Assembly (NCBI RefSeq): GCF_002723935.1
Contig: NZ_BEWM01000004.1
Span: 310,001-374,000 of the forward strand
Origin: Gluconobacter cerinus
GTDB taxonomy: Bacteria; Pseudomonadota; Alphaproteobacteria; Acetobacterales; Acetobacteraceae
Length of the DNA: 64,000 nucleotides
Direction: 5' to 3'
Made by a program: the position numbers and the translations under genes. Shown here piece after piece: positions 5,223-63,444 of this stretch. Within the stretch, counting starts at the first letter, position 1; each line of letters opens with the position of its first letter. The notes under the pieces are model-generated. The model did not search any database, was not told the DNA's origin, and saw only the letters and a program-made list of their open reading frames with translations.

Positions 5223-5226
5223 CAGA

Positions 5227-15914: not shown

Positions 15915-15923
15915 TGGCGGCGT

Positions 15924-35115: not shown

Positions 35116-35118
35116 ATT

Positions 35119-38161: not shown

Positions 38162-38169
38162 AACACAAT

Positions 38170-40877: not shown

Positions 40878-41819
40878 TCACTTCCAGACCGTTGAACCAA
40901 TATCAACGTGTGACGGTAAAAGTCCTTCCTTTAGAAATCCGTCAGCAACCTGTTGTTGTTCCTGAATAATCTCTGCACTCATAGGCGCATAACTGAAATC
41001 ACGTGTTTTGATTGCAGAATAAACCGTGTCGTATGGCAATCCCGTTTGTGTTGCGAGAAGACGGGACACTTCAGGCTTATGGGCCTGGGCCCAATCATCG
41101 GTTTGCGTGATCTGGTGAAGTGCCTCCCGAAGAAGGTCAGGCTGACTTTCTGCAAATCCACGGCGAGCAAGGAAAAATTCTCGATTGGCGACGATATCCT
41201 GAGCCGTCGTCAGAATGCGCGGGCTGTTGGAGAGCGCACTGGAAAGGTAGGGGTCCCATATTGCCCATGCGTCAATCTGGCCGCTTTCAAAAGCGGAACG
41301 AGCAGAGGGAGGGGTCAGATAGGCTGGTTTGATGTCATGAAAAGACAAACCGGCTTTATGGAGAACCTGAAGAAGAAACCAGTGGACATTGGACGCGCGA
41401 TTGAGGGCAATCCGCTTGCCCTTTAGATCCGCGAGGGTTCGGATCGAACTGTCTTTAGGGACGAGAATGGCTTCAGCCAATGGAGCAGGAGGCTCGTGCC
41501 CTACATACACAAGCGCATCAGGACTTGCAGCCGATGCAAACACTGGCGGAGCATCACCGGTCTGCCCCAAATCGAGGGCTCCCGCTACGAGGGCTTGCAG
41601 GAGTTGTGGACCAGCGACAAATTCTGACCACACGACATTCGCGCGGCCCGCCAATGCTTTTTCCAGGGCACCAGAAGCCTTGAGAATAACGAGAGTGCTA
41701 TAGCGCTGGTAGCCAATACGGATGACAGGCGTGGCCGCATGTGCCGAAGAGGCAAGAGTGAGTGCAAGCCCCCCTGCCAACAGACTGCGACGGGTGATAA
41801 CGGTACGTGGATCAGTCAT
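40878..41819 (-). CDS. SsuA-like aliphatic sulfonate-binding protein, Tat-exported
   Basis: The 313-residue periplasmic protein begins with a twin-arginine signal (TRRSLLAGGLALTL, cleavage near SSAHA) and has the NMT1/SsuA-type fold: IGYQRYSTLVILKASG after the signal, DLKGKRIALNRASN near residue 130 and IDAWAIWDPYLSS near 186. SsuA proteins capture alkanesulfonates or taurine for an SsuBC importer. No SsuB or SsuC gene is found in the window, so the partner must be encoded elsewhere or the protein works another way. The start overlaps the preceding monooxygenase gene (ATGA), making it the last gene of the operon. Confidence 0.88.
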   Translation of the reverse strand: MTDPRTVITRRSLLAGGLALTLASSAHAATPVIRIGYQRYSTLVILKASGALEKALAGRANVVWSEFVAGPQLLQALVAGALDLGQTGDAPPVFASAASPDALVYVGHEPPAPLAEAILVPKDSSIRTLADLKGKRIALNRASNVHWFLLQVLHKAGLSFHDIKPAYLTPPSARSAFESGQIDAWAIWDPYLSSALSNSPRILTTAQDIVANREFFLARRGFAESQPDLLREALHQITQTDDWAQAHKPEVSRLLATQTGLPYDTVYSAIKTRDFSYAPMSAEIIQEQQQVADGFLKEGLLPSHVDIGSTVWK

Positions 41820-43159
41820 GGAGCCGCCGTGTTGTATTGTGGTTCAGATGTTCCGAAAAGTTTTTCCCGCAGAGTTCCGGGCTGATATTCCGTCTTGTAA
41901 CGGCCACGCTTTTGAAGCTCTGGCACGATATATGTCACGAAATCCTCGAAGCTTCCGGGGGTGATGGCATATGCGAGATTGAGGCCGTCAATACCTGTGT
42001 CTTCAATCCAGGTTTCGATCTGATCCGCGACCTTCTGAGGGCCACCAACGAACGTTACGCCCATTCCCCCGATCGCCGCATGTTCTGCGAGTTCCCTGAC
42101 AGTCCAGACCCGTTTGGGGTCTACAACGGTCAAGGCATCGATGGCAGAGTGAATGGCATCGTTGCGGATATGACGGACTGGATCATCAAGATCGAAGGTC
42201 GAAAAATCGATCCCCGTCCATCCTGACATGAGCGTCAGAGCCCCTTCATGGCTGATATATTTTCTATATTCCGCCCATTTTTCCAAAGCAGCCTCATCGT
42301 TTTCGGCAGTGACGATGGTTACGAGTGAGAAAATCTTGAGTGATTTTCGGGAACGTCCCGTGCGTTGAAGCTCTGCTTCCAGCCCAGAAACAGCATGTCG
42401 TGCCACCTCTTTGGACGGACCGGCAATAAAGACGCATTCAGCGTAGTCGCCGGCAAAAGCCCGACCTTTACTGGACGTGCCAGCTTGATAGAGAACGGGC
42501 GTTCGTTGTGGTGAGGGTTCACAGAGATGAATGGCATCGACCTCAAAATACTTGCTTTTGTGCTGAAGACGATAAACCTTTGAAGGGTCTGTAAAAATTC
42601 CGACCTCTCTGTCTCGAAGAACGGCACCATCCTCCCAGCTTCTTTCCCACAAGCCCCTTAAAACCTGCATGTAGTCGCGCGCGACGTCATAGCGCTCATC
42701 ATGAGACGTCTGCTGTTGCTGACCCACGCCTTTTGCCGCGCTGTTTAGATAGCCCGTTACAATGTTCCACCCCATCCGTCCGTTGGTCAGGTGATCCAAT
42801 GTGCTGATACGGCGAGCAAAGGGGTAGGGATGCTCAAAGGAAAGTGTTGCTGTTAGCCCGAAACCCAGGTTCTCGGTCACAGCGGCCATGGCAGAAATCA
42901 GCATGGCCGGGTCATTAACGGGCACCTGAGATGCATTGCGCAATGCGGCTTCCGGTCCGCCGCCATAGACGTCGTAAATGCCAAGAACATCTGCGATAAA
43001 AAGACCGTCGAACAGACCGCGTTCAAGCGTTTTCGCGAGGTTCGTCCAGTATCTGAGGGTGTTGTAATGCCATGATTGATCGTCTGGATGACGCCAAAGA
43101 CCGCTCGCCTGATGGGAGACGCAATTCATATCAAACGCGTTTACGGGGATAAGAGACAC
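41816..43159 (-). CDS. NtaA/SnaA/DszA-family FMNH2-dependent monooxygenase (second copy)
   Basis: The 447-residue luciferase-like TIM-barrel protein has the NtaA/SnaA/DszA pattern: AFDMNCVSHQASGLWRHP at the N-terminus, GLFDGLFIADVLGIYD near residue 50 and GRMGWNIVTGYLNSAAKG near 125. Members oxidise nitrilotriacetate, dibenzothiophene sulfone or related compounds with FMNH2 from a separate reductase. It is paralogous to the gene at 47314-48708. It begins with GTG, 56 bases after the MFS gene, and overlaps the SsuA gene. A desulfurising role is inferred from the operon; the exact substrate is unknown. Confidence 0.9.
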   Translation of the reverse strand: MSLIPVNAFDMNCVSHQASGLWRHPDDQSWHYNTLRYWTNLAKTLERGLFDGLFIADVLGIYDVYGGGPEAALRNASQVPVNDPAMLISAMAAVTENLGFGLTATLSFEHPYPFARRISTLDHLTNGRMGWNIVTGYLNSAAKGVGQQQQTSHDERYDVARDYMQVLRGLWERSWEDGAVLRDREVGIFTDPSKVYRLQHKSKYFEVDAIHLCEPSPQRTPVLYQAGTSSKGRAFAGDYAECVFIAGPSKEVARHAVSGLEAELQRTGRSRKSLKIFSLVTIVTAENDEAALEKWAEYRKYISHEGALTLMSGWTGIDFSTFDLDDPVRHIRNDAIHSAIDALTVVDPKRVWTVRELAEHAAIGGMGVTFVGGPQKVADQIETWIEDTGIDGLNLAYAITPGSFEDFVTYIVPELQKRGRYKTEYQPGTLREKLFGTSEPQYNTAAP

Positions 43160-43215
43160 AGGCGCTCCTTGAAAACGATCAGGATGAAACGGCGAGGAGG
43201 TGGGCTCGGCTGTAC

Positions 43216-44709
43216 TCAGCCCTGATTTACGAGGGCTGAGTGTTGAGGAGATGTGTCTTGCCGGGGAGCTGGCCTCAGCACGGACTTTAATGTGTCGTCG
43301 CCATCTGGGTCATAATTGAAGACATCCCAGCGGATCACCTGATGCAATGTCAGACCGATCAGAGGCGCGCTCAAAATGAACCAGAAAAGGTTCGTCCCGA
43401 AATTCGCATAGAGGCTTGGCAGAGCCCACATGGCCATGGTGGCGCCCAGGCCAGAAATGAGCCGGTTCATACCGATACCGACGCCCCGGATTTCGGTTGG
43501 ATAGGTCAGAGTGGCGTAGATCATCTGCTGGCAGCCGGGTCCGAAACCTTGACCGAAAAGATACCCTGCAAAACCTGCGAGTACCGCTATGACGCCTGCC
43601 GTGGAATGTGGCGTGCCCACAATCGCCAGCGTTCCGATGGAGATCGCCTGCAAGATATATCCAGCGATATTGACCTTACGGGACGACACGTATCGCGCCA
43701 GACGAACCCCAATCAAACCACCCGTAAATGCGAAGACGAGGTTCAGAATGATTGATGTAATCAGAACCTGCTTACGGTCGAGGTGCAGCATTCCTGCAAG
43801 CAAACTTGGCGCCCCGAACGCGATTGCGGCGTAAGAGTAGGCACTGACGATGGAAATGATACTGACAAGAATTCCACGCTTCAGCAGGGGCTGACGGAAG
43901 AGGGGGGCAATCCCGTGAGGTTGTGGTCGGATAGGCGGCGCCTCGATCTGAAGAACCGGGTCAATGCCATGAGACGCCCTTAAAATTTCCGCTGCTTTTT
44001 CCAGATCTCCGTTCCGAGCGATCCAGATAGGGGACTCACTCATGTACCTGTTACGGACAAGGATGATCAGAAGCGCGGGCAGCGCGCCGAATGCCAATGA
44101 CGCGCGCCACAGCCAGTCCGGATGAGTGGCTGGAACGACCGCATCAAGGGCAAAGACAAGGAAAAAGCAGAGCGAGGAAGCCGCATACCAGGTTGGGCAC
44201 CATGCCGCGGCCCGGCTCGCTTTGCTTCCTTTTCCACTCAGCTTTGAAAACTCTGACAGGAATGCCATGGCCACAGGCAGGTCCATTCCGACGCCAAAAC
44301 CCATTGCGAAACGGGCAAGGATCAGGATGGTGGCCGTTGGCGCCATGCCTGCTACGAGGGCTGCGATGACGAAGCAGATCATGTCCGCCATGAAAACAGC
44401 GTATCGACCAATCCGGTCAGTCAACCATCCCCCCGCGATACTCCCGACGATCGTGCCTGCACTCATCGCTGCTGCGACCATCCCTGTGGCGGATGTGGAA
44501 AGACCAAAGTGCTTCTGTACATCGCCGATGCCGTAGGAGAGCGTTGTCAGGTCGTAGGCGTCAAGAAAGACACCACCGAGAGCCAAAGCCACGATGATGT
44601 TTGCATGCCCGCCGCCTTGAGGTCCTGCATTGACGATGGCAGAAACATCATCAGCATGACGGATGACAGGGCGAGGCGTGCCGGATGTGGCAGTTTGAGC
44701 AGACGTCAT
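43216..44709 (-). CDS. MFS metabolite:H+ symporter in the organosulfur operon
   Basis: The 497-residue protein has twelve predicted helices with the MFS signature GGWLTDRIGR near residue 97 and FLDAYDLTTLSYGIG in helix 1, as in aromatic-acid and metabolite:H+ symporters. A cytoplasmic loop of about 60 residues follows helix 6, and polar tails flank the core. It overlaps the YdhS-like gene upstream (ATGA). In this setting it probably brings an organosulfur substrate into the cytoplasm or exports a product. Substrate cannot be read from sequence. Confidence 0.85.
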   Translation of the reverse strand: MTSAQTATSGTPRPVIRHADDVSAIVNAGPQGGGHANIIVALALGGVFLDAYDLTTLSYGIGDVQKHFGLSTSATGMVAAAMSAGTIVGSIAGGWLTDRIGRYAVFMADMICFVIAALVAGMAPTATILILARFAMGFGVGMDLPVAMAFLSEFSKLSGKGSKASRAAAWCPTWYAASSLCFFLVFALDAVVPATHPDWLWRASLAFGALPALLIILVRNRYMSESPIWIARNGDLEKAAEILRASHGIDPVLQIEAPPIRPQPHGIAPLFRQPLLKRGILVSIISIVSAYSYAAIAFGAPSLLAGMLHLDRKQVLITSIILNLVFAFTGGLIGVRLARYVSSRKVNIAGYILQAISIGTLAIVGTPHSTAGVIAVLAGFAGYLFGQGFGPGCQQMIYATLTYPTEIRGVGIGMNRLISGLGATMAMWALPSLYANFGTNLFWFILSAPLIGLTLHQVIRWDVFNYDPDGDDTLKSVLRPAPRQDTSPQHSALVNQG

Positions 44710-46139
44710 GAATGCACCTGTTCAGAATGTGTCGAGATCTGAAGGATATCGGCCAGTCGGGCGGCGACAGATTGAGCGTTCGCTGTTACTTCCGGAAAAC
44801 CCATAAGCTCGCCAAAGGTCCCACGGGAGAGTGGTCCGGCAATAAATAGGCCCGATACCGGGCGTCCGCCAACAAGGGCCGCGTGGTCTTCACCGGTCCA
44901 GAGCCCGAGACCAACGGGATCTTTCTGCACAAAGCCATCCTGAGCCAGACGAGAGAGAAAACCGGGCTTCGTCAGAATTCCGGCATGGTCCGGGCCAGTG
45001 GTATTGATCAGAATGTCTGTCCGGATTGCGCGGGTTCGCCCCCCACGTCCCCGGAGATGCAGAATAATGCCCTCAGGTGTGGCTTCCGCGCGTTCGATCC
45101 GGGCTGCAAGAACCGTGAGTGAGCCAGTTTCTGATCTCAGGTTCAGAGCGCGTTCGACCTGTGGCGCGATCCGAAACCGATGGACATCCCAGAATGGTCG
45201 AAGATGGCGGACAAGCCGACGCTGTTCCGTCGGGGGAAGTGCCGTCCAGATAGCTTTGCCCTGTCGCCGCACAGCATCCAGAACGTCTTGCCACGGGCGG
45301 TCCGGGGCTAAACTAAGTGTCTTACGAATGCGTGTGAGCAAACCTAACGCCGTCTGTTCAGGGTTGGTGGAAAAATCCCCGAAGAGACTGGTAGGCTGAG
45401 GAGAATGCCCCCGGGAGCGCAAGCCACGTCGGGAAACCGCGGTGATAGAACCCAGATGCCCCTGTGCGGTGAGCGTCGCTACAACATCTGCCATTGTGAG
45501 GCCGGTACCTACAATGGCAATCCGTGCCCGAGGATCTATGGTTTTGAAGGCATTCTTCGCCCATGGGTCGGAGATCACGCGTGGATCATGCGCGATTTCT
45601 TCGAGGGGATACGGCAGGGCCGGAGCCGGGTGAGATGTCGCAATGACGACATCCGATACGGTAAATACCGTGCCTTGAGCGGTATGGATCAGCCAGTGCT
45701 GACCATCATGCTGCACGGCCACTACGGCATCCTGAACATGCCTGAGTGTCTCGTTGACGAGAGATGGCGTTATTCTCTCAAAGAGATAGCGGCCAAACTC
45801 TGACCTCGTCGGGTAAACGTCTCCAGACGGCAAAAAGGCCTCCGGATCACAGGTTTCGTGACTGTGCCATTTGAACCACTGCGCAAAGTCATCAGGCTTA
45901 TCCGTATCAATGCTCATCCTTGACGCTGGAACATTGATGCGATGCTGTGGATCTGTGCTGCCATACGCGACGCCCGCACCCAGCCGGGTGCGAGGCTCGA
46001 AGATTACAACGCTACCGACACCCAGATCTCGGCGCTTGCGAAGAAGATGATACGCAATCATCGTCCCTGTCGCTCCGCCACCAATAATTGCCAGGGTGGC
46101 AGAAACGGGAGGGCGGCTGATATGGACTTCCACGTTCAT
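44706..46139 (-). CDS. YdhS-like FAD/NAD(P)-binding protein
   Basis: The 477-residue flavoprotein has the dinucleotide motif [17 protein letters not shown] near residues 17-33, the family segment [20 protein letters not shown] near 56-75 and a second motif [12 protein letters not shown] near 208, as in E. coli YdhS and related PF13454 proteins. It resembles flavin monooxygenases of the ornithine-hydroxylase type but its reaction is unknown. Start and stop overlap its neighbours by 4 bases, so it belongs firmly to this operon. It may act on a product of the monooxygenases or recycle reduced flavin. Confidence 0.8.
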
Positions 46140-47317
46140 GAAGAGGCTTGGGCCGGGCGATAAGAGTTGGCAATCGTCTCACCAAACGGCCCCATATTGT
46201 TCTGACCGCCGGCTGCGCGTGTCGGATGAGCTGTCGGAAGCAGCGGAAGGACCAGTTCGCCGAAGCTGTAAGCTTCTTCCAGATGAGGGTATCCGGAAAG
46301 GATGAAGCTGTCGCAGCCAGCGCGTCTGTATTCATCAATCCGCTCGGCAATGGTGGCTGGATCTCCGACCAGAGCCGTGCCAGCTCCGCCTCTGACCAGC
46401 CCGACGCCAGCCCAGAGGTTAGGGCTGACTTCCAGCTTGTCCCGCCGTCCGCCATGCAGGGCGCTCATGCGGGACTGTCCCACTGAGTCCAGCCTTGAGA
46501 ATACAGACTGGGCCTGCGCGATGGTCGCGTCATCAAGACGGGAAATCAGGCGGTTTGCCGCGGCCCAGGCTTCTTCTGTTGTCTCACGGGCGATGACATG
46601 AAACCTGATCCCGAAACTGACTTCGCGTCCTTCACGCGCAGCGGCCTCGCGAACACGGGAAATTTTTTCCTTAACAAGTTCCGGTGGCTCTCCCCACGTC
46701 AGATACTTGTCGATCCGCTTGGCCGCGACCTGAATTCCTGCCTCAGAAGATCCGCCGAAATACAGAGGCGGCCCCCCAGCCTGATGAGGAGGATAAAGGA
46801 TCTGGCCGTCCGCAATATGAAAGTGCTTACCCTCGTGATTGACGGTGTCGCCCTTCAGAAGACGAGAGTAGATCGATAGGAATTCGTCAGTAATTTCGTA
46901 CCGGGTGGCATGATCGAAAAAGAGACCGTCCCCTTCATTTTCCTTGGGATCTCCGCCCGTTACAACATTAATCAGAAGACGCCCGCCAGATAGCCGATCC
47001 AGTGTCGCTGTCATCCGTGCTGCAAAGGTTGGAGATTGCAAGCCGGGGCGCACGGCTACCAGAAATTTCAGCCGTTCAGTGGACGTAATAAGGGAGGACG
47101 CGACGATCCAGGAGTCTTCGCAACTCCGTCCTGTGGGGAGGAGGACACCGTAATATCCCAAACTATCCGCCGCCCGTGCGACCTGTTGGAGGTATGGCAG
47201 ATCAACGCTGCGGCCACCTTCCTGCGTTCCCAGATATCGGCTGTCTCCATGAGTTGGAAGGAACCAAAGAACGTTGATTTTCTCGGGGACACCCCCGATG
47301 GCGGCATTTGTGCTCAT
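46136..47317 (-). CDS. ssuD: FMNH2-dependent alkanesulfonate monooxygenase
   Basis: The 393-residue protein closely follows E. coli Ssu[15 protein letters not shown] (about residues 18-31), [14 protein letters not shown] near 62-75, [15 protein letters not shown] near 215 and [21 protein letters not shown] near 315 (long motif given in part). SsuD uses FMNH2 and O2 to split alkanesulfonates into aldehyde and sulfite in the cytoplasm. It overlaps both neighbours by 4 bases. The usual flavin reductase partner gene ssuE is not in this operon. This is the most securely identified member of the island and shows that it serves sulfur acquisition. Confidence 0.95.
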
Positions 47318-48708
47318 GAAAAACTCGCTGTCTGGGCGTGAACGGTTAGGGAGGCTTGATGGGCGGGATGGCTTGTTGGAAGGCGGTCAAAACCGAACAG
47401 GCGATGACGGAATGTCTCTAAAGGGGTGTTGCGCTCTGGCAGGCGACCACGCTTGCGAAGCTCAGGGGCGATCAGCTCTCCAAAATCTCTGGCCGTCTCA
47501 AACGTGTGGTATTGGCGGAGGTTAATCCCGTCGATGCCGTCTTCGTCGAGCCAGTCCTCAACAGCATCCGCGATCTGGGACGGTGTGCCAGCGACGAAAA
47601 AGCGGCCCTGTTCAAAACTGGCAATCTGGTCCAGCGCGCTGCCAACTGTTTGATCCGGGCCAAATCGACGTCCCATGTTTCCAAACGGACGCCCCGACTG
47701 TTTAAGCGCCTCACCAATGGTCAGTGAGCGGTCAAAATTCCGCAGATCAATCTCGGCTTGCGCATGGACATGAGCAGCTTCGACACTATAGCGCGCCCGG
47801 TAACGGCTCAGCTTCTCCTGAGCTTCGACTTCCGTATTCCCAGCGATAAGGCCGGCCATGACATAAAACTTCAGGTCGTTGGGGTCTCGTCCATTCAGGG
47901 CCGCCTGTTCGCGTGTCTGTGCAATGTTGTGGCGAATTTCCTCGCGTGTACGGCCCCCAATGAAAACGGCCTCCGCATGGCGGGCTGCAAATTCCAGGCC
48001 ACGCTTGGAGCCGGTCGCCTGGAATAAAACGGGCGTGCGTTGGCGTGTGGGCTGCACAAGATGCGGCCCCTCAACTTGATGATGCCGACCCTTGTGGTTG
48101 ATGTAATGAACACGATCAGGGTGCGTGAAAACGTCCTTCTCGCGATCAATAACCAGAGCGTCTTCGTCCCAGCTCTGCTCCCAGAGCTTGTACAGAACCT
48201 CAAGATATTCCTCAGCCCGCTCGTAGCGCTCGTCGTGCTCGATTTCGTCCGCGAGGCCGAAGTTTCTGGCGGCGTTTGGCAGGTAGGAGGTCACAATGTT
48301 CCAGCCAACGCGCCCTTCGGTCAGAAGATCTAACGTGCTCATACGTCGGGCAAAGGCGAACGGCGGCTCATAAGTCGTTGAAAATGTTGCGGCGAACCCT
48401 AGACGCGTGGTGACAGCGGCCATAGCCGGGACCAGGGAGAGCGGATCGAGGTTCGGGATTTGCACGCCAAGCCGAAGGGCGGGGTCAAGTCCGTTAAAAC
48501 GGTCATAAACCCCGATGACATCGGCAAGAAAAATTGCGTCGAAACCTGCGTCTTCCGCAAGGCGCGCCTGTTCCAGCCAGAATGCCATTTCCCCGAAACG
48601 GTGGCGATTGTTGTCAGGCGCCGTCCACATTCCGTGAACAATGTGACTCACGCAGGCCATCTCGAAGAGATTGACTTTTAACTGCTTCGGGGCCGATGCC
48701 TTACTCAT
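47314..48708 (-). CDS. NtaA/SnaA/DszA-family FMNH2-dependent monooxygenase (first copy)
   Basis: The 464-residue luciferase-like protein carries the family patterns [18 protein letters not shown] near residues 15-32, [17 protein letters not shown] near 54 and [18 protein letters not shown] near 131. It is related to the 41816 gene but clearly distinct, so the operon holds two different NtaA/DszA-type enzymes. It should use FMNH2 and O2 on a C-S or C-N substrate such as a sulfone. It overlaps the DszC-like gene upstream and ssuD downstream by 4 bases each. Substrate is unknown. Confidence 0.92.
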
Positions 48709-49919
48709 GCCGGCTCCTTGGAGAGACTTTTCTTCAGGCCTTCACGGTACGGCGTCCAAAGAGGGGTATCGTTCAAAGCCAGATCCCCGAGTTCCCGACG
48801 GCGCTGGGCCGCAGGGTTGTGTGAGGACAAAACGCGAGCATTGCGCCAATGGCGATCCAGATTTCTGATCTGACTGGTAGCGGACGCCCCGCCAACTTCA
48901 AAAAGCAGATTTGCAGCTTCAAGCGTTTGATCAATAACGATTTGCTGCGCTTTAAAGGCAGCTTCTTCTGCTTCGCTAAACGTCACGCTCTCGGTATCGC
49001 CCCGCAACCAGGCAGGCTCAGCCTCAGTCAATGCATCCGAAACGCGATCGACCAAAGCAGACGTCGAGAATGCAAGGGCCGACAAACGCCCAACAACACC
49101 CTGAACAACGGAGTCTTCTCGTTGAACAACTTTACCGGGAACTCCGAACGTTCGTGTTCTAGGCCGCACAAAGTCAATAGCATCGCGCAGTACGGCAGCT
49201 GAAATTCCTGCCAGTGCTGCAAGATGAAATTGCTGATAGTAGGCGGCGAGATAAGAATGAGCCGGAATATTTCCGGGCTGAGAGCGATCCAGAACTTGTG
49301 TTGGGCCAATTAAGACGTTGTCAAAAACAGTTGTTCCGCTGCCGGTGAGGCGCTGACCAAAGCCATCCCAGTCATCAATACGTGTGACACCGGGGGCATC
49401 TGAAGGGACCAGGACGTGTGCCCGTTGCTCTCCCTCTGCGGCCCAGACAATGATCCAGTCAGCATAGAGCGTGCCGGTGGAATAGTACTTCGTCCCATTC
49501 AGGCGAAACTCATTTCCGTCAGAACTTAACTGTGTAGACACGCCTGTTTCGTCCGAGCGTTCCGCCATGGCAGCGCCAAAAAGTGCGCCTTCACGAACAC
49601 GGTCAAACCATTCGGCAGATTTGTGAGCGTGGCGGAGCCTGCCTTCAATAAATGCAAAATGAGCGCGAAATATTTGCGGGAGGTTTGAATCTGCTGTCGC
49701 CAGATCTCGCAGCAGACTGAAACTCTGCTTGAGAGATGCTCCATACCCGCCAAATCTACTGGGCAGACGTACGCGACCCAAGCCTGCAGTCTTCAAGTCC
49801 TGAACGACATTTCGGACAAGCGCGGGGTCGCGTTCGAATTCCTGCGATGCACGCGTTATCGTTTCAATGATCGGCTGCAAGCGTTCTCTGGCAGAGACGA
49901 AATTGTCGGAAGAGGACAT
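48705..49919 (-). CDS. DszC/SfnB-like flavin monooxygenase of the acyl-CoA dehydrogenase fold
   Basis: The 404-residue protein has the acyl-CoA dehydrogenase fold: N-terminal helices, a middle beta domain (FRLNGTKYYSTG near residue 136) and a C-terminal helical domain. The late motif NLDRHWRNAR...SSHNP (about 362-380) is typical of DszC, SfnB and related flavin-dependent oxygenases rather than fatty-acid enzymes. DszC-type members oxidise a thioether to sulfoxide and sulfone, which DszA-like enzymes then cleave. It is the first gene of the seven-gene operon, behind a 311-base divergent control region. The start has only a weak ribosome site. Confidence 0.88.
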   Translation of the reverse strand: MSSSDNFVSARERLQPIIETITRASQEFERDPALVRNVVQDLKTAGLGRVRLPSRFGGYGASLKQSFSLLRDLATADSNLPQIFRAHFAFIEGRLRHAHKSAEWFDRVREGALFGAAMAERSDETGVSTQLSSDGNEFRLNGTKYYSTGTLYADWIIVWAAEGEQRAHVLVPSDAPGVTRIDDWDGFGQRLTGSGTTVFDNVLIGPTQVLDRSQPGNIPAHSYLAAYYQQFHLAALAGISAAVLRDAIDFVRPRTRTFGVPGKVVQREDSVVQGVVGRLSALAFSTSALVDRVSDALTEAEPAWLRGDTESVTFSEAEEAAFKAQQIVIDQTLEAANLLFEVGGASATSQIRNLDRHWRNARVLSSHNPAAQRRRELGDLALNDTPLWTPYREGLKKSLSKEPA

Positions 49920-50230
49920 ACAACGACACCTAACGGATATAAGGCAAAATCAACTAGAATTCGTAGTTCATGATGCGCACCAAACCGTCAGGAGCGTAAT
50001 TTTTAATTCGTCATCTCTCACATTAATTATTTCAATGTGAACCCCTGGAATGGCTATTTTCCAAGGTATAATAAGGGAAAACTGCACCTGCAAAATACAA
50101 CATTAAAAATACGTTGTTATTAACGTTTATCCATTTGGATATGTGAATAAAGGAATCGCTTGGGGAAAATGTGTCCCACAACGGCTGATTTTATGTTCCG
50201 AGATGTCACCCAAATGTTGAGAAACGAGTC
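49920..50230. promoter_or_regulatory. Divergent promoter region of the organosulfur operon and the receptor/ABC operon
   Basis: TATAAT at 50067-50072 with CTGGAA 16 bases upstream is a plausible plus-strand promoter for the receptor gene. ATTAACGTTTAT at 50119-50130 is a CG-centred near-palindrome (10 of 12 positions) of LacI-operator type, downstream of that promoter as a repressor site would be. ATCCA-TT-TGGAT at 50129-50140 is an adjacent inverted repeat. The minus-strand promoter was not resolved. The regulator may be the LacI protein encoded at 57760. Confidence 0.45.
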
Positions 50231-52489
50231 ATGAAAGCCTTTTACGAGCAGCGCACACGTATCCTCCTCCTTGGCATGACCGTTCTTTCAACATGCACCC
50301 TGATGCCGGCTGCTTTTGCTCAGGATATTGAACGCAACAAAAATCCGAGCCCGCGTGCCCCTCACGCCCGTCCTGGATTCAGTTCCCCGAACACTCATGT
50401 TGCATCTTCACACCCTAAAAACAGCGTTGTGCCTTCTCCAAAGAGTGAGGATATCAGTGTCACTGGGTCAAATGGTGTCCGTACCGCTGAAAAGCGCCTG
50501 AGAAAGGTGCCGGGAAACTTTACAGTTATCAGCAGCAAGGAGGTCGAGAAGGGGCGATCAGCCACACTCGAGGACACTCTGGCCTTCCAGCCCGGCATTT
50601 TTGCGCAGGCAACCAGTGGAAGCACCGGAAACAAGATTTCCATAAGAGGGTCGGGCGCAGGCGTCTTCTACGGAGGTTACAGCCTGGGAATGAAATACCT
50701 CGTTGACGGATTGACTGTCAGCGGTGTGGGAGGATTTCAGGAAGATCGCCTCAATAATACCGGCTACCAGCGCACTGAAGTTCTTTATGGCGCCAACGCA
50801 TTTGACTACGCGGCTACTGCTCTCGGTGGTGGCATCAATTTCGTAACGCATACAGGCGTATCTGCCCCAGGGTTTATGGCCCGCTTTGAAGCTGGCAGCT
50901 ACGGCACTCTCAAAGAACAAGTCAGTCAGGGAGGAACATTCAGCAACAAGAAAGGCGATTACTACGTCACCGCAGCGCGAACCAATCGCCAAGGATTCCA
51001 GAGCTATACGGCAATGCATCGCACTGATGTCGTCGCAAATCTTGGATACCGTTTCACCGACAAATTATCTGCTCGCCTTATTTTCAAGTGGGATGAGGGG
51101 TTCGGCCATTACGGTGGCTTGCTCACACTTGCTCAGCTTCGCAAAAGCCCGAGCATCAACCCAAACGACTGGGGAGGGCGCCCGACCAGAAGCACAATGC
51201 TGGGATTTAAAACCAATTATATTTTGGATGATGATTCCAAGCTGGAATACGGCATTACCTGGAACGATTATCCGCTCTTTAATGGGACGAATACGCAGCA
51301 GTTTAATCTGTGGCGTTCCACGGATATCAACAATTCTATCAAATATAACCGGAACGATCGCCTTCTCGGACGGAGGATCGAAAGCAACTTCATTCTAAGT
51401 GACGTGCATATGGTCTCTGGAGATTCCAGATATTACACATCGTCCGTCCGCTCTACGCAGTCTAATAGTGAAGACTGGACCCTTCATCAGCGTGTCAAAT
51501 ATGGCGGATCACATGATTTGGTTTTTGCAGCTGGGAATAATTTTAACATTTTCAACAGACTTTGGCTGACTAGCGGTTTTTCAGTTATCTGGATTGACCG
51601 CAATATACGCGTTGTTGACCGTCTAATACCCAACTCAGCTCTTCAAAGCCGTGAACACTATAATAATGTCTTCATTACGCCTCGCGTAGGCTTGCGTTAC
51701 GAGATTAATCCTGACGTTGATGTGTTCGCCAATTTCAGTCGTTTGATCGACCCGCCTGTGACGTGGAACTACCATGATGTCAAAGGGAGCAGCCCCTACA
51801 ATGACACAGGAACTGTAGGGCCACTAAAAGCCCAACGGGCTAATTCGGCTGAGATCGGCATCAGAGGCCATGTCGGCATATTCGATGGAAACCTGACTCT
51901 TTATCGGAGCTGGGTCAAAGATGAACTGCTGTCCGTTGTAGTCACGCGCGCAACCAGTACAACAGCAGAAATCACTACAACGTCTAACGCCAGTCCGACT
52001 ATTCATCAGGGGATTGAAGCGGGCCTGTCAACAAAGCTCTTTAATCTGCATCAGTATGGTGCCTTATCATTCCGGCAGGCTCTCACGGTTAATGACTTCT
52101 ATTACAGACATGACCCACTTCTCGGACAGAACAAACTCCCGTCTATCCCAACATGGCAATATCAGGCTGAACTTCAGTATAATAATCCGTTGGGGTTCTA
52201 TGCGAACTTCGATTTCAGATCGTCTTCAAGCTATTATGTTGATTACGCCAACACATTAAAGGCGCCGAGATACGGGATCTTTGGTCTGAAGCTCGGTTAC
52301 GAGGCGAAAAGCAAAATCTGGAGCACTTTTCTTGATTTCCGTAATCTCGGAAACAAGCATTACGCCACAGCCGCTTATACCGCCTACAACCTGAACCATA
52401 CGGATTCCGCAATGTTTTACCCGGGTGACGGGTTCAGTGTGTTTGGCGGCGTGACTGTCCACCTCAGTGACCTCGGGAAGCACCTCTGA
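50231..52489 (+). CDS. TonB-dependent receptor, first gene of the receptor/ABC operon
   Basis: The 752-residue receptor has a signal peptide (to AAFAQ near residue 31), a Pro/Ser-rich linker, a TonB box SEDISVTG at 72-79, a plug with LAFQPGIFAQ, SIRGSGAGV and GGGINFVTH, and a barrel. The usual final aromatic residue is followed here by a short tail (VTVHLSDLGKHL), which is odd for this family. It is paralogous to the receptor at 38170. The ABC importer genes follow 43 bases later on the same strand. Together they form an outer-to-inner membrane import line, probably for a sulfur-containing compound. Confidence 0.92.
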   Translation: MKAFYEQRTRILLLGMTVLSTCTLMPAAFAQDIERNKNPSPRAPHARPGFSSPNTHVASSHPKNSVVPSPKSEDISVTGSNGVRTAEKRLRKVPGNFTVISSKEVEKGRSATLEDTLAFQPGIFAQATSGSTGNKISIRGSGAGVFYGGYSLGMKYLVDGLTVSGVGGFQEDRLNNTGYQRTEVLYGANAFDYAATALGGGINFVTHTGVSAPGFMARFEAGSYGTLKEQVSQGGTFSNKKGDYYVTAARTNRQGFQSYTAMHRTDVVANLGYRFTDKLSARLIFKWDEGFGHYGGLLTLAQLRKSPSINPNDWGGRPTRSTMLGFKTNYILDDDSKLEYGITWNDYPLFNGTNTQQFNLWRSTDINNSIKYNRNDRLLGRRIESNFILSDVHMVSGDSRYYTSSVRSTQSNSEDWTLHQRVKYGGSHDLVFAAGNNFNIFNRLWLTSGFSVIWIDRNIRVVDRLIPNSALQSREHYNNVFITPRVGLRYEINPDVDVFANFSRLIDPPVTWNYHDVKGSSPYNDTGTVGPLKAQRANSAEIGIRGHVGIFDGNLTLYRSWVKDELLSVVVTRATSTTAEITTTSNASPTIHQGIEAGLSTKLFNLHQYGALSFRQALTVNDFYYRHDPLLGQNKLPSIPTWQYQAELQYNNPLGFYANFDFRSSSSYYVDYANTLKAPRYGIFGLKLGYEAKSKIWSTFLDFRNLGNKHYATAAYTAYNLNHTDSAMFYPGDGFSVFGGVTVHLSDLGKHL

Positions 52490-52532
52490 TGATGCGCCGG
52501 TCTTTTCTTGAAGCGACGCATTGGTCAGACAC

Positions 52533-54197
52533 ATGAGCAAACATCATAACCGCAGAAGGGCTTTGATATTTGCTCCGATCATGGCGTTTTTAGCCGTCCT
52601 GTTTTATCGGCATGATACAGACAGTAGACTGCGACATACGAGCAGGCAGCAGAGCTCGTCGCCTCAAAAAGGCGGGACTCTCGTCTTTGCGACGGAACGT
52701 GAGCCTTTGTGCCTTGATCCGCATGTTTATGGGGACATGCCGCAGGTTTATATTGCCGAACAGTATCTGGACCGGCTCGTTTCAATGGACGAACAGGGCG
52801 CTATTCACCCGTGGCTGGCAACGTCATGGGAGATTACGGACGGCGGACTCACATACATCTTTCACCTCCGTCATGACGTGACCTTCACTGATGGGACCAG
52901 GTTCGATGCGGCGGCCGTAAAGCGTAATCTCGACCATATGGTGGACCCTACGACGCAATCGGGGACTGCGGGGGGATACATCCGCCAATACACCCGAACC
53001 GATATTCTCGATCCTTATACGGCAGCGGTACACCTGTCTTCGCCATACTCAGCGTTCCTCAACGTTCTGGCGCAGGGTTTTCTGGGAATTGAGTCCCCCG
53101 CAGCGTTGGCACGGCCTCGCGATGTAAACTGCCAAAGCCCTGTGGGGTCTGGTCCCTTCATTATCAGCCACTGGGATCATCAGAGCGAGGTCGTTCTCAA
53201 GAGAAACCCAGCCTATGCATGGGCTCCTCCTACCTCCCCCCATCAGGGACCAGCATGGCTTGAAGGTATCGTCTGGCGCTTCGTTTCCGAACCGTCAGTC
53301 CGTTTTGCCATGCTTCAGGCCGGTGAGGTTGGTGTGATTGATAGCGTACCCCCTGAGGGCGAAACGCCAGCAAAGGCTAACCCGGACGTATCATTACTGA
53401 TGGCAGATCGACCGGGAAATCCCACTAACGGAACCTTGAACACGCTTCGTCCGCCATTTGACGACATTCGTGTCCGTGAAGCGTTCATTCGGTCCGCAGA
53501 TATTGATGGGGCGTTAGGCAGTATATTTTTCCATCATTATGCGCGGGCGGGTGGCCCGCTAAGTCCGTCCACACCAGATTATAGTCCGGATTTCGAGCAT
53601 ACCAAGAACTACGATCCACAGCGTGCCAATACACTTCTGGATGATGCCGGCTGGAAAAAGCGCGATTCCGATGGATATCGGATCCGGGACGGTAAGAGAC
53701 TGATCGTACATATCCCGATCTCTACGGTTCTTGCACCTGCAGATCGCACTCTTTGGGAGCAGGTACAGGCCACAGCACGCCAGACAGGCTTTGATGTTCG
53801 CCTGGAGCCTTTAAGTGAGACTGCGAATATCGCGCGGAGTGACGCCTGGGATTATGATGTGCGAATTGGGTATTGGAATACAAATACCCCGGATGTCCTT
53901 CGCATCGTTTTCGGATCGGCTTTTACCAACCATTTCCGGCACGGCATCCATCAGAATGCTTCAGGCTATAGCAGCCCGCTCTTCGACGGTGTCGTGGAAC
54001 AGGCATTGGCCACGCAAGACCAACAGCAACGGAAAGCGTTTTACCAACAGGCGCAAGAGATCATCGCCAAGGCACAGCTTCAGATCACAACGTATTCGCA
54101 GACCACGCGTCTAGGGGTGTTCAGCAATGTCCACGGTGTACGCATCGAGCCATCATTACGCGTCATCAATTTTCATGATGCCTGGATGACGCCGTGA
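52533..54197 (+). CDS. ABC transporter substrate-binding protein, Dpp/Opp family
   Basis: The 554-residue protein has a basic N-terminus and one hydrophobic segment (about residues 11-25) acting as signal or anchor, then a SBP_bac_5 domain with GGTLVFATEREPLCLDPH near residue 46, WLATSWEITDGGLTYIFHLR near 90 and the late PSLRVINFHDAW. Such proteins bind peptides, nickel complexes, glutathione or other oligomeric solutes. ATG 52533 is preferred over a TTG four codons upstream. It is followed directly by two permeases and an ATPase. Ligand is unknown; a sulfur peptide or sulfonate is inferred from location. Confidence 0.88.
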   Translation: MSKHHNRRRALIFAPIMAFLAVLFYRHDTDSRLRHTSRQQSSSPQKGGTLVFATEREPLCLDPHVYGDMPQVYIAEQYLDRLVSMDEQGAIHPWLATSWEITDGGLTYIFHLRHDVTFTDGTRFDAAAVKRNLDHMVDPTTQSGTAGGYIRQYTRTDILDPYTAAVHLSSPYSAFLNVLAQGFLGIESPAALARPRDVNCQSPVGSGPFIISHWDHQSEVVLKRNPAYAWAPPTSPHQGPAWLEGIVWRFVSEPSVRFAMLQAGEVGVIDSVPPEGETPAKANPDVSLLMADRPGNPTNGTLNTLRPPFDDIRVREAFIRSADIDGALGSIFFHHYARAGGPLSPSTPDYSPDFEHTKNYDPQRANTLLDDAGWKKRDSDGYRIRDGKRLIVHIPISTVLAPADRTLWEQVQATARQTGFDVRLEPLSETANIARSDAWDYDVRIGYWNTNTPDVLRIVFGSAFTNHFRHGIHQNASGYSSPLFDGVVEQALATQDQQQRKAFYQQAQEIIAKAQLQITTYSQTTRLGVFSNVHGVRIEPSLRVINFHDAWMTP

Positions 54198-55156
54198 TGA
54201 AACGCTTGGCTTCTCAGCGGCTGATCGGTCGGATTGGTTTGAGTCTCGGCATGCTGTTCGCATCTGCCACGCTGACATTTCTCGCGGTACGTATGATGCC
54301 AGGTGATCCGGCAACGATCATTCTCGGCGGAGCGCTGGCCAACCCCACACCGGGTGCGGTCGCAGCGATCACAAAGGAGTACGGCCTCGATCGCCCCCTT
54401 ATCGTGCAATATGGTTTCTATATATGGCGCCTGCTGCACGGGGATTTGGGCGTCTCCTTCAGCCAGCATCTGCGTGTTGCGGAAGTTTTACGCCAACAGA
54501 TGCTACCCACGCTGGCACTGGCATCCATTTCTCTGCTCCTCGCATGGACGCTCGCACTGCTATCAGTGTTCTGCACAGTGCGGCGCGGAAGAGTACTCTC
54601 GACCATTGGAGCCTCTTTCGACATCTCGGCTGCGGCGCTTCCACCATTCTGGCTTGGAATTGTGCTGCTCTGGATATTCGCATTCAGATTACATCTGCTA
54701 CCGCCTGCTGGAAGCTCATCGCTAGCCTCACTCATTATGCCGGCATTTTCTCTCGCCATTCCCTTGGGCGGATTTCTGGCACAGGTCACGCGTGAGTCTT
54801 TGGAAATTGCCCTCGATCAGCCGTTCATTCTCAGCGCAAGAATGCGAGGGCTTAGTCTGGGGCAGGTTTTGCGTCGTCATGCCCTGCGTCACGCGCTTCT
54901 TCCGGGTATCGCACTCTCAGCGTGGGCTCTCGGCGCTCTTCTTGGTGAGACGGCGGTCATCGAAGCCATATTTTCGCGTAAGGGACTTGGACGCACCTTG
55001 GTTTATGCCGTTTCCGCGCAGGATATGCCCTTAACAACGGGCATCGTTCTGTTCGTCACGGTCGCATACATATTCGCCAGCCTGGGTATCGAGCTCATCC
55101 ATGAACTGGTTGATCCGCGCCTCGCAGCATCTCGTGGGCGGAGAGACTCGCCATGA
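54197..55156 (+). CDS. ABC permease, DppB/OppB family
   Basis: The 319-residue membrane protein has six helices, a DppB-type N-terminus with GLSLGMLFASATLTFLAVRMMPGDP near residues 17-41 (given in part) and the EAA loop around LGQVLRRHALRHALLPG near 225. ATG 54197 overlaps the binding-protein stop (TGATG). It pairs with the next permease to form the importer channel. Confidence 0.92.
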   Translation: MKRLASQRLIGRIGLSLGMLFASATLTFLAVRMMPGDPATIILGGALANPTPGAVAAITKEYGLDRPLIVQYGFYIWRLLHGDLGVSFSQHLRVAEVLRQQMLPTLALASISLLLAWTLALLSVFCTVRRGRVLSTIGASFDISAAALPPFWLGIVLLWIFAFRLHLLPPAGSSSLASLIMPAFSLAIPLGGFLAQVTRESLEIALDQPFILSARMRGLSLGQVLRRHALRHALLPGIALSAWALGALLGETAVIEAIFSRKGLGRTLVYAVSAQDMPLTTGIVLFVTVAYIFASLGIELIHELVDPRLAASRGRRDSP

Positions 55157-55992
55157 CCATAACCGCAAAAAGACTCATGGCATGGAAGCAGATTCCCATT
55201 GCAGTGCTTCCTGCCTCTGGCTTTCTGGTGTTCCTTTTGGTGTCAGCCATCATTCCCAATGCGATCAGCGCAACTGATCCCTATGCCATCGCACCACGGC
55301 ACGCTTTCTTATCCCCAGACTGGAGCCACCCTTTCGGAACAGACCAGTCTGGCCGGGATATTCTGACACGTGTCATCCACGGTACACGCCAATCTCTGCT
55401 TGTGGGGGCAGGGGCTGTCGCAATCAGTTTTTCCGGTGGGATTATCCTAGGATTGGCAGGCGGGCTTGGCCCTAGATGGCTTCAGAAAAGTATTGGCGCG
55501 ATCATAGATGTGCTGTTTTCGTTTCCCGCCCTGATACTGGCGCTTCTCTTCTCTGCAAGTCTAGGAACCGGAGCAGGACCGCTGGCTTTAGCCATCGGGA
55601 TCGCTGCGACGCCCGGCTATGGCAAGATGGTTTTCAGTCAGGTTTTATCAGTCAGATACTCCGGATACGTTGAGGCTGCTCGTGCCCTTGGTCACACGCC
55701 GTTCTCCATCGTTCAGCGGCATATTCTCCCCAATGCACTTCGCCCGCTCATAGTGACCGCCACCATGGGCGTAGGCCAGACAATAGTCTGGGCGTCAGGA
55801 TTATCTTTTCTGGGGCTCGGAGCACCGCCACCCACTCCGGAGTGGGGAACCATGATGTCCATGGGCCGCGACTTCATCGCTGATGCCTGGTGGCTCACTC
55901 TCTTTCCCGGCCTTTTCATCGTGCTGACTGTGCTGTCCACAACAATAGTCGGGCGCTTCTTGCAACGTCGCCTCGAAGGCAGACCCTCGTGA
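55153..55992 (+). CDS. ABC permease, DppC/OppC family
   Basis: The 279-residue protein has an N-terminal helix, the DppC motif HPFGTDQSGRDILTRVIHGTRQSL near residue 58 (given in part), and an EAA loop around EAARALGHTPFSIVQRHILPNA near 176. It overlaps the first permease gene by 4 bases (ATGA). Together with the partner permease it forms the transmembrane channel of the Dpp-type importer. Confidence 0.92.
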   Translation: MTITAKRLMAWKQIPIAVLPASGFLVFLLVSAIIPNAISATDPYAIAPRHAFLSPDWSHPFGTDQSGRDILTRVIHGTRQSLLVGAGAVAISFSGGIILGLAGGLGPRWLQKSIGAIIDVLFSFPALILALLFSASLGTGAGPLALAIGIAATPGYGKMVFSQVLSVRYSGYVEAARALGHTPFSIVQRHILPNALRPLIVTATMGVGQTIVWASGLSFLGLGAPPPTPEWGTMMSMGRDFIADAWWLTLFPGLFIVLTVLSTTIVGRFLQRRLEGRPS

Positions 55993-56002: not shown

Positions 56003-57622
56003 ATGACCGGACAGGACCTGACGGTTGAAAAGCTTTCCATATCATTTGGTGGAAAGCAGGTCGTACACGACCTCTCTTTTCAAATAACGCCTGGCAAAAT
56101 TCTAGCCATGGTGGGTGAGTCCGGATCGGGCAAAAGCGTAACCGCGCGCAGTCTCGTCGGGTTAGCGGGCGACCGGGCTCAGGTTACAGCAGCGAGCCTT
56201 CGCCTCGGTGATGATGAGATCCTGCGGCTGGATGACGCTGCCTGGGGGGTGATCCGTGGGCAGAAGATAGGGTTCGTTCTTCAGGATGCGCTGACATCAC
56301 TCGATCCGTTACGAACAGTCGGGCAGGAAATAGAGGAATCGCTGACGGCAGATGGTAAGTGGCGCGGCTGGCGTAATCGTGCAGCGCGTCGAAAGCAGGT
56401 GCTGGAGCTTTTGAAAAGCACATCTGTGCCGGAGCCTGAAATACGTGCACGGCAACGGGCCGATGAACTCTCTGGAGGACTTCGGCAAAGAGCGCTCATC
56501 GCCTCTGTAATAGCTCTGAACCCAGGAATAGTGATTGCGGATGAGCCAACGACTGCGCTGGATGCCAGTGCGGTCTCTCATGTCCTCGGCCTGTTTCGTG
56601 ACCTGAAAAATGCGGGTCATGGAATATTGTTGATCAGCCATGACATCGAAGCGGTGTCTCAGGTCGCTGACTCGATCATCGTCGTCAAGAACGGGCAAAT
56701 GATAGAGCATGGCGAGACTGAGCAGATTTTGCGCCATCCTTCGCAAGATTATACGCGCTTGCTACTAAGTTCGGTTCTGAAGCAAAACCGTAAGTCCCCA
56801 GAGCCTTCAACTCTGCAAGCAAAAGACGAGACCCCGTTACTCGTCGTGAATGATATCGTCAAAAGCTATCCTAATACGACTGGAGCATCGAGGCTCGCAG
56901 TAGATCATGTCAGTTTTACCCTTCAAAGAGGCAAAACACTCGGCATTTTGGGTGAATCTGGCTCAGGGAAGACGACAACAGCACGGATCATCGCCGGGTT
57001 TCTGGAACCTGATGGGGGTAATGTATGGTTTGACGGGAGATTATGGAGCGGAGTTCAAGCGAAGACCAATCGAAGCGTTGAAGAACATGAGCGCCGACCG
57101 TTTCGACATGAAATGGGTATCGTTTATCAGGATCCACTCAGTTCCTTCGATCCGCGCTGGACTGTTCAGCGTATTCTTGCTGATGCTCTAAAAGCCAGTG
57201 CCATCCCACGCGCCGAGCATAATGATCGCATTGTGGCTCTTTTGACATTAGTGCGGTTAACACCAGATATATCCCGCCGGTTTCCTCTTCAGCTCTCAGG
57301 CGGCCAGCGCCAGCGCATCGCAATTGCACGTGCCATCGCGGGAAATCCCAAGTTGATCGTCTGTGATGAACCTGTTTCAGCGCTTGACGTCTCAGTGCAG
57401 ACACAGGTGCTGGAACTGCTCACAGAGCTACAAGAACGCCTCAATATCTCTTATTTGTTCATTTCTCATGATTTGGGCGTCATTCGTCAGATCAGTGACG
57501 ACGTCCTTGTAATGCAGAATGGTCGCGTAGTTGAAGCCGGACCGACACAACAGGTCTTTGAAGCGCCACAGCATAACTTCACGCGGCTTTTACTCAATTC
57601 AAAACTGCCTGATTATGTATAG
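56003..57622 (+). CDS. Fused double-NBD ABC ATPase, DppD-DppF type
   Basis: The 539-residue protein contains two complete ATPase domains: Walker A GESGSGKSV near residue 36 with signature LSGGLRQR near 155, and GESGSGKTT near 317 with LSGGQRQR near 431. Both Walker B/Asp-Glu pairs (VIADEPTTALDA, IVCDEPVSALDV) are intact. A single gene thus supplies both ATPases of the importer, as in GsiA-type systems. Ten bases separate it from the second permease. It is the last structural gene before the LacI regulator. Confidence 0.94.
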   Translation: MTGQDLTVEKLSISFGGKQVVHDLSFQITPGKILAMVGESGSGKSVTARSLVGLAGDRAQVTAASLRLGDDEILRLDDAAWGVIRGQKIGFVLQDALTSLDPLRTVGQEIEESLTADGKWRGWRNRAARRKQVLELLKSTSVPEPEIRARQRADELSGGLRQRALIASVIALNPGIVIADEPTTALDASAVSHVLGLFRDLKNAGHGILLISHDIEAVSQVADSIIVVKNGQMIEHGETEQILRHPSQDYTRLLLSSVLKQNRKSPEPSTLQAKDETPLLVVNDIVKSYPNTTGASRLAVDHVSFTLQRGKTLGILGESGSGKTTTARIIAGFLEPDGGNVWFDGRLWSGVQAKTNRSVEEHERRPFRHEMGIVYQDPLSSFDPRWTVQRILADALKASAIPRAEHNDRIVALLTLVRLTPDISRRFPLQLSGGQRQRIAIARAIAGNPKLIVCDEPVSALDVSVQTQVLELLTELQERLNISYLFISHDLGVIRQISDDVLVMQNGRVVEAGPTQQVFEAPQHNFTRLLLNSKLPDYV

Positions 57623-62901: not shown

Positions 62902-63444
62902 TTACTGCCTCTTGATCGGCAGGTGATGAAAATCACGGGAAAACCACGTGAGGCCATGTTCGGCTTCAGGGTTGTTATATATGGACTGAACTTCGCAAAA
63001 GAGCACATCATGTGTTCCGGCGCTGTGTATCGTTCGTATCACACAATCAAGCGTTACAAGAGCGTCTGACAAAAGCGCAGCACCAGTTTCACCAATTTCC
63101 CATGTTCCGTGAGAAAATTTCTCTTGAGCATCAAGAGACCGGCTCGCAAATACGCGTGCCAGATCGCTGTGATTTGGCGACAACACACTAATTCCTACAA
63201 TACCGTTCTGCAAAAAAGACTGATGCGATCGATTGCTGCGATTCAGGCAAACAAGCACTGTCGGCGGGGTATCGCTGACGCTACTAATGGCTGAAACCGT
63301 GAGTCCTTGGCGTCCACCAGGGCCGTCTGTCGTAACCAGAACGACTGGTGCCCCGAGTAGGCTCATTGCCTCGCGAAACTCTTCCTGACTGACATGGGAA
63401 GAACTGTGCTCGGGAAGCAACGCAGCGGCAGGGTTATGTGGCAT
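62902..63444 (-). CDS. RutF-like FMN reductase
   Basis: The 180-residue protein has the flavin reductase-like domain and closely follows RutF/HpaC: FREAMSLLGAPVVLVTTDGPGG near residue 22 (given in part), SAISSVSDTPPTVLVCLNRS near 51 and THDVLFCEVQ near 146. It reduces FMN or FAD with NAD(P)H and delivers free reduced flavin to two-component monooxygenases. The monooxygenase operon at 40878-49919 lacks its own reductase, so this could be the supplier. An AAAGG site precedes the ATG by 9 bases. A partner oxygenase is not adjacent. Confidence 0.9.
   Translation of the reverse strand: MPHNPAAALLPEHSSSHVSQEEFREAMSLLGAPVVLVTTDGPGGRQGLTVSAISSVSDTPPTVLVCLNRSNRSHQSFLQNGIVGISVLSPNHSDLARVFASRSLDAQEKFSHGTWEIGETGAALLSDALVTLDCVIRTIHSAGTHDVLFCEVQSIYNNPEAEHGLTWFSRDFHHLPIKRQ

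Follow-up and report, generated by a model that had tools for sequence, protein, structure and literature searches.

A putative modular organosulfur-scavenging locus in Gluconobacter cerinus and other acetic acid bacteria

Seven genes that look like one operon occupy positions 40878-49919, all on the minus strand, of a 64,000-nucleotide stretch of the Gluconobacter cerinus genome (RefSeq assembly GCF_002723935.1, contig NZ_BEWM01000004.1, positions 310,001 to 374,000 of the forward strand; hereafter the window, whose numbering is used throughout). Together with TonB-dependent receptors (TBDRs) and, in some genomes, a Dpp-type importer, we read them as a modular organosulfur-scavenging locus that ends in sulfite, a reading that we put at roughly 60%. 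An organosulfur role as such is likely, because the operon includes an SsuD, its other oxygenases have relatives in known desulfurization systems and the neighborhood is conserved. Organic sulfur compounds are likely to serve acetic acid bacteria as sources of sulfur in their habitats on flowers, fruit and insects. The locus would couple TonB-dependent uptake to stepwise desulfurization by flavin enzymes, and its flavoprotein g4 is a concrete gene that deserves biochemical work. All seven open reading frames (ORFs) were verified, and their family calls match the labels given in the original prediction, which was made from the sequence alone:

48705..49919, minus strand: g1, SfnB/DszC-like group D oxygenase, first gene of the operon
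47314..48708, minus strand: g2, NtaA/DmoA-family luciferase-like monooxygenase (LLM), 464 aa, with LadA as the closest solved structure
46136..47317, minus strand: g3, SsuD, alkanesulfonate monooxygenase dependent on reduced flavin mononucleotide (FMNH2), 393 aa
44706..46139, minus strand: g4, FAD/NAD(P)-binding PF13454 flavoprotein, 477 aa, with a predicted class B N-hydroxylase-like fold
43216..44709, minus strand: g5, major facilitator superfamily (MFS) carrier, 497 aa (PF00083/PF07690)
41816..43159, minus strand: g6, DmoA-like LLM oxygenase, 447 aa, GTG start
40878..41819, minus strand: g7, SsuA-family sulfonate-binding protein, 313 aa
38170..40458, minus strand: TBDR1, TonB-dependent receptor downstream of the operon, on the operon strand

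Conservation of the locus across the Acetobacteraceae

The feature of the operon that stands above chance is the conservation of the order, strand and spacing of g1-g5 across genera. The order SfnB-like, LadA-like, SsuD, FAD, MFS recurs in five further genera of the family, Asaia, Acetobacter, Komagataeibacter, Neokomagataea and Novacetimonas, in which these genes also keep their strand and, mostly, near-zero spacing. A literature search, short on subscription journals, found no description of this cluster in acetic acid bacteria. Two samples document the conservation; they overlap (genome G020 is locus L076, G023 is L075, G022 is L090, and others) and are not summed. The first comes from the loci of the best 80 of 317 relatives of g4: g2 is present at at least 55% identity in 18 of the 80 named loci, all 18 from Acetobacteraceae, with L080 and L110 excluded, in which SsuD lies at the very start of the stretch examined and no g2 is shown. 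Every one of these 18 has g1 and SsuD, 16 have TBDR1 (the contigs of the other two end), 15 the MFS carrier and 5 DppA. The genes g1 and g2 are adjacent in 15/18, with a 4-base overlap in 12 of those 15; the g4-MFS junction is a 4-base overlap in 13/15; and SsuD and g4 adjoin in 18/18 with a spacing of -4 to +29, the presence of g4 being by selection since it was the query. The second sample comprises the 12 of 200 Acetobacteraceae genomes that carry g2 at at least 60% identity (the next match stands at 47%) and covers only the stretch around g2, 14-19 kb outside the window genome. Here g1 is found in 11 genomes, and SsuD and g4 in 10; G179 has no g1 within the 14 kb examined of its 23.8 kb contig. 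The operon is also carried by a 217 kb plasmid of Komagataeibacter saccharivorans (two plasmid records matched at 69%, of which one was examined), whose annotation lists an acyl-CoA dehydrogenase, an LLM oxidoreductase, ssuD, an FAD-dependent oxidoreductase, an MFS carrier, a flavin reductase and a TonB receptor.

Exact 4-base overlaps had been taken to imply one tightly coupled pathway. They are present at five of the six junctions, so that each gene overlaps at least one neighbor by 4 bases, but the chain is broken between g5 and g6 by a 56-base gap, where the GTG start of g6 is preceded by AAGGAG. The same overlap recurs in 7 of 23 other same-strand neighbor pairs from a hand-picked gene list of the window; being so common, it suggests co-transcription and nothing further. 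What remains of the coupling argument is the conserved gene order, set against modules that appear separable.

The seven genes were too tight a boundary: the conserved locus also takes in a TonB receptor and, in certain genomes, a Dpp importer. In 11 of the 12 genomes g2 is accompanied by a TBDR1-like receptor (49-100% identity), the contig of the twelfth being cut. In relatives, TBDR1 lies on the operon strand after the MFS or flavin reductase gene, and in G022 and G012 between the MFS and DmoA genes. In the window, further candidate components lie upstream of g1:

49920..50230: divergent intergenic region between g1 and TBDR2, presumed promoter region of both transcription units
50231..52489, plus strand: TBDR2, divergent TonB-dependent receptor
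52521..54197, plus strand: DppA-type (SBP_bac_5) solute-binding protein
54194..55156 and 55153..55992, plus strand: DppB- and DppC-type permeases
56003..57622, plus strand: fused DppD/DppF-type double ATPase
62902..63444, minus strand: RutF/HpaC-like flavin reductase, tentative candidate for supplying FMNH2

At least one inner-membrane carrier is present in 12/12 genomes, MFS in 8 and Dpp in 5, with DppABC-DF replacing an absent MFS carrier in four. Among the 12, both together occur in the window genome alone; its two close relatives G020 and G023 have both as well, though that sample contained no g2 row for them. Such exchange of unrelated carriers within one locus suggests that MFS and Dpp serve the same substrate. 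The DppA-type protein is closest to the NCBIfam model TIGR04028 (SBP_KPN_01854; 218.7 bits, under the cut-off of 468.5), and the relatives of the importer include NikA/CntA-type systems, with only the ATPase passing nickel or opine cut-offs. For small volatile sulfur compounds a TonB receptor would be an uncommon requirement, since molecules of the dimethyl sulfide (DMS) type are expected to pass porins; its presence hence speaks against very small substrates, dimethyl sulfone (DMSO2) among them. In the accessible part of one source, a TonB-dependent receptor is mentioned for siderophore uptake only (PMC12581299).

The oxygenases and the PF13454 flavoprotein

Judged by its sequence, g3 is a true SsuD: it scores 605.6 bits against an equivalog cut-off of 518.2 (TIGR03565), is 63% identical to E. 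coli SsuD and keeps C54, R226, H228, R297 and Y331, which we take to be the catalytic residues. The product of g7 passes the SsuA-family model TIGR01728 (223.4 bits, cut-off 163.5) and is the only representative of SsuABC, as SsuB, SsuC and SsuE were not found among the seven genes. In E. coli the order is ssuEADCB; the two systems share SsuD and SsuA family proteins and the release of sulfite from sulfonates, whereas the Gluconobacter operon is without SsuE, SsuB and SsuC and its locus adds a TonB receptor, a group D oxygenase, two LLMs, g4 and an MFS carrier.

By similarity, g1 is a group D oxygenase of the SfnB/DszC-like kind. Its best NCBIfam model is SfnB (TIGR04022; 235.8 bits, under the cut-off of 430.9), its score against the DszC model is 98.8 bits (cut-off 850), and its best PDB matches are 8cda, a 'Probable monooxygenase' (114.7 bits), the methanesulfinate monooxygenase 6u76 (112) and TdsC (99.2). 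At two Acetobacter loci an SfnB gene lies upstream of the g1 orthologue (L087, 15784-17040, where it is split into two ORFs; L088, 15788-17044, where it is full length and above the cut-off), which supports g1 and SfnB as distinct. The g2 protein passes the NtaA/DmoA family model TIGR03860 (449.9 bits, cut-off 279.7); LadA (3b9n, 406.7 bits) is its closest PDB entry, and it is 47% identical to LadA and 39% to DmoA. The closest PDB entry to g6 is DmoA of Hyphomicrobium sulfonivorans (6ak1, 579 bits), to which it is 55% identical across 440 aa. PMC9259527 lists 20 binding residues of DmoA, of which g6 keeps 16 and g2 15, but LadA itself keeps 13, making this a weak discriminator; g6 has Q18 as in DmoA, where LadA has I. 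Likeness to DmoA notwithstanding, g6 lies in an assimilatory-looking context. The two oxygenases had been described as DszA/NtaA-like, and the NtaA/DmoA family membership stands, but the nearest relatives are LadA and DmoA rather than DszA, whose PDB entry ranks fifth for g2 and eighth for g6; a DszA model was absent from their NCBIfam results, where it is unchecked whether NCBIfam holds one.

None of the three LLM enzymes of the operon reaches the SfnG equivalog cut-off of 382.95 (the best, g3, scores 152.2 bits), so a reading built on DMSO2 and SfnG was dropped, and a scan of the seven genes and of flanking genes found no DszB desulfinase. The original statement that the set departs from the standard ssu, tau, sfn and dsz arrangements is right. 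As described in the accessible part of one source, dszABC/bdsABC effects 4S thiophene desulfurization and, like the present locus, pairs a group D S-oxygenase with a group C oxygenase that cleaves C-S bonds (PMC3868597); here, in contrast, no DszB was found, the sulfonate exit would run via SsuD, g1 falls far below the DszC cut-off and g2 is nearer LadA. Elsewhere in the same genome, locus L011 (G000:C3:534001-554000) has another adjacent pair of SfnB-like (37%) and LadA/DmoA-like (41-46%) genes at 8386-10877, and in L009 (G000:C4:198001-218000) an LLM oxygenase with 32% identity to g6 adjoins a separate Dpp-type importer at 13096-19285, a further pairing of an LLM with a peptide-type ABC system.

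For g4, assigned to PF13454, a sequence search of the PDB gave no match, and a fold search was therefore made. With its AlphaFold2 model (mean pLDDT 91.1), Foldseek returned PvdA as best, followed by lysine/ornithine N-hydroxylases (KtzI, SidA, DesB), with E-values from 4e-22; TM-scores against PvdA/SidA/KtzI-type targets are 0.52-0.65 over g4 and 0.60-0.75 over the target. The predicted structure has the FAD and NAD(P)H domains of class B N-hydroxylating monooxygenases, and two dinucleotide-binding glycine motifs, G20/G22/G25 and G211/G213, are invariant in 53 sequences. These features g4 shares with PvdA, SidA and KtzI; it differs from them in an identity of only 13-19% and in adjoining SsuD, not siderophore genes.

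The nearest named relatives of g4 are from Gluconobacter sp. Gdi (84%) and G. thailandicus F149-1 (82% identity). Among the best 80 of 317 relatives, a co-oriented SsuD gene lies within 200 bp in 37, an LLM gene within 5 kb in 51, and an LLM or g1-like gene in 77, so that the association with SsuD, SfnB and SfnG holds for the closest relatives only. For comparison, the window genome, with 7 LLM and 6 g1-like matches in 3.58 Mb, would place one in a random stretch of that size ~5% of the time, a figure computed on that genome, with no matched control, while rhizobial genomes may hold more such genes. Seven of seven g1-like neighbors picked from Rhizobiales pass the SfnB cut-off, as does one of two from Acetobacter (the other, a fragment, fails), and one LLM neighbor passes that of SfnG. 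In Hansschlegelia the order permease, ATPase, FMN reductase, SsuA, SsuD, g4 (labeled by Pfam for the first three and by similarity for the others) is that of an ssu-type operon ending in g4. The literature search found no description of this recurring place of g4 beside SsuD, SfnB and SfnG. Considering its predicted fold and neighboring genes, g4 is probably a self-contained NADPH/FAD oxygenase, responsible for the initial S- (or N-) oxygenation upstream of SsuD. The genus group commonly encodes a second PF13454-like protein with ~30-34% identity to g4 (e.g. G000:C2:439945-441267).

The flavin reductase at 62902-63444 scores under the RutF and HpaC cut-offs; a reductase 40-46% identical to it accompanies the operon in 8/18 relatives. 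A NIR_SIR-family protein is encoded elsewhere in the window genome.

Proposed route and competing explanations

We posit that an organosulfur compound, bulky or in short supply, crosses the outer membrane through the TonB receptor or receptors, and that the MFS carrier and/or the Dpp-type importer would carry it across the inner membrane. In a module A, g1 and g2 might perform S-oxidation and then C-S cleavage, in the manner of DszC and DszA, leaving a sulfinate or sulfonate, to which g6 could contribute thioether or sulfoxide cleavage. A module B would comprise SsuD and g4: by strong homology SsuD is expected to free sulfite from the resulting or from imported sulfonates, and g4, going by fold and neighbors, may act upstream of it. 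The sulfite would be reduced by the sulfite-reductase-family protein, and reduced FMN would come from a separate flavin reductase, perhaps that at 62902-63444. Such a division of labor among oxygenases is plausible in light of Acinetobacter, in which three group D enzymes oxidize DMS and dimethyl sulfoxide (DMSO), one reductase supplies all oxygenases and the absence of sulfate strongly induces the genes (PMC13352529).

A number of observations weigh against this reading. Substrate, reaction order and control by sulfur are all putative. No shared operator was found upstream of g1, where the inverted repeats differ between genera. With ~100-115 bits for g1 and 47% identity to LadA for g2, both are too distant from characterized enzymes for a reaction to be assigned. 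Activity of g6 on DMS is putative; even the soluble recombinant DmoA proteins, that of Hyphomicrobium included, gave no methanethiol, which the authors blame on the lack of a suitable reductase (PMC9259527), and none of the Acinetobacter group C enzymes oxidized DMS detectably (PMC13352529). Thioredoxin reductase and dihydrolipoyl dehydrogenase also appear, at lower TM-scores, in the Foldseek top 50 of g4, so that a general two-dinucleotide-domain fold is by itself no proof of an oxygenase and a reductase role is possible. Relatives of g4 with ~50% identity in G001 and G009 adjoin an aminotransferase-family gene (class I/II, the upstream ORF in both) with no locus genes nearby, and a second g4 copy in G022, of ~50% identity, is likewise in a different context (L157, L158 and L159 for G001, G009 and G022); part of the g4 family may accordingly do something else. 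Some Asaia records are broken, with g2 and MFS in pieces in L081 (Asaia prunellae) and MFS in pieces in L080, by sequencing error or decay. Finally, among the 18 operon loci DmoA is present in 9 and SsuA in 3 (once on the other strand), and G119 has the TonB receptor, g1, g2 and Dpp with no SsuD or g4 in the stretch examined.

Hence module A, g1 and g2 with uptake, can stand alone, as G119 indicates. The Asaia loci yielded no DmoA-like gene, and among the loci examined SsuA lies within the operon only in the window and two close relatives. For these reasons a single seven-step pathway is not established, and the locus resembles a set of separable modules more than a single fixed route. Of the stepwise oxidation to sulfite put forward at the outset, the organosulfur role and the SsuD endpoint survive; the one fixed path does not, and the locus gains TonB uptake and interchangeable carriers.

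This modularity also feeds the chief competing explanation, a possible one although we think it clearly less probable than the scavenging route: that the operon is a toolkit in which each oxygenase handles a different sulfur source, the genes being co-transcribed since all are wanted in sulfur starvation. DmoA, SsuA, the flavin reductase and the carriers do vary between genera, and the Acinetobacter enzymes are as a rule promiscuous and redundant (PMC13352529), but the recurring adjacency of g1 to g2 (15/18) and of SsuD to g4 (18/18, g4 by selection) suggests paired steps. The path from DMS through DMSO and DMSO2 to methanesulfonate, as in Acinetobacter and Pseudomonas, employs DmoA-like, group D and SsuD enzymes of the same kinds, and in Acinetobacter baylyi and Pseudomonas likewise lines up flavin oxygenases of groups D and C in series, with SsuD as the last step (PMC13352529). 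The Gluconobacter locus, however, is without an SfnG equivalog, uses LadA/DmoA-like enzymes and sets them in one operon with TonB uptake, a receptor present in 11/12 genomes that such small molecules should hardly need, and we regard the DMS path as unlikely. Less likely still is that sulfur is not the object at all, and that the locus takes up and oxidatively breaks down a metallophore, an opine or another nitrogen compound with a recruited SsuD. A TonB receptor next to an ABC importer with NikA/CntA-type relatives (the nickel and opine cut-offs being passed by the ATPase only), the N-hydroxylase-like fold of g4 and the nitrilotriacetate and EDTA monooxygenases among the LLM relatives would fit it; the true SsuD, the SfnB and SfnG neighbors of g4 relatives and an ssu-type operon in which g4 follows SsuD speak for sulfur.

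Within the organosulfur-scavenging reading, a more specific version is offered tentatively, as a conjecture less probable than its negation: that g4 founds an unrecognized class of single-component NADPH/FAD S-oxygenases beside SsuD, SfnB and SfnG in Alphaproteobacteria, and that the locus serves the TonB-dependent desulfurization of a bulky thioether, perhaps peptide-like or plant-derived, with MFS and Dpp as interchangeable inner-membrane doors.

Regulation and flanking regions

As a candidate shared operator, ATAACAACG occurs in 6/16 upstream stretches; half of these occurrences are in the window and its two close relatives, which makes it unconvincing. A LacI regulator at 57760 was rejected as part of the system, near relative G023 showing only a 25% match, far past the Dpp genes. 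Scans of 38000-54500 for promoters and terminators showed no enrichment relative to shuffled sequence (8 vs 12.2 and 17 vs 16.0, respectively), and no RNA families or tRNAs were found in the window. In Novacetimonas hansenii grown on glycerol, the accessible part of one report describes mild induction of genes for 'alkanesulfonate transport and metabolism' and sulphate assimilation (PMC12405394); its ssuD may be a different one, and we give it no weight.

Next to TBDR1, positions 32023-37544 encode an RND pump (AcrB family), an intervening gene and an OEP outer-membrane factor; of these, the OEP gene was in the query set used for relatives. An OmpR/EnvZ-like two-component pair lies at 60208-62336, near the flavin reductase. 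An SsuC/SsuB-like pair is found at C4:378 kb (permease at C4:378046), ~18 kb from g1 and ~26 kb from g7, scoring 242.6 and 242.3 bits, under the cut-offs of 347 and 395. It belongs to a second organosulfur-looking group, which spans and passes the right end of the window (L008, G000:C4:371001-391000, 2556-11950) and in which the pair is accompanied by a nitroreductase-family gene, a TonB receptor, a LysR regulator, an SsuD-family LLM below the SsuD cut-off, an SfnB-like gene below the SfnB cut-off and a class II aldolase-like ORF, the last labeled by eye.

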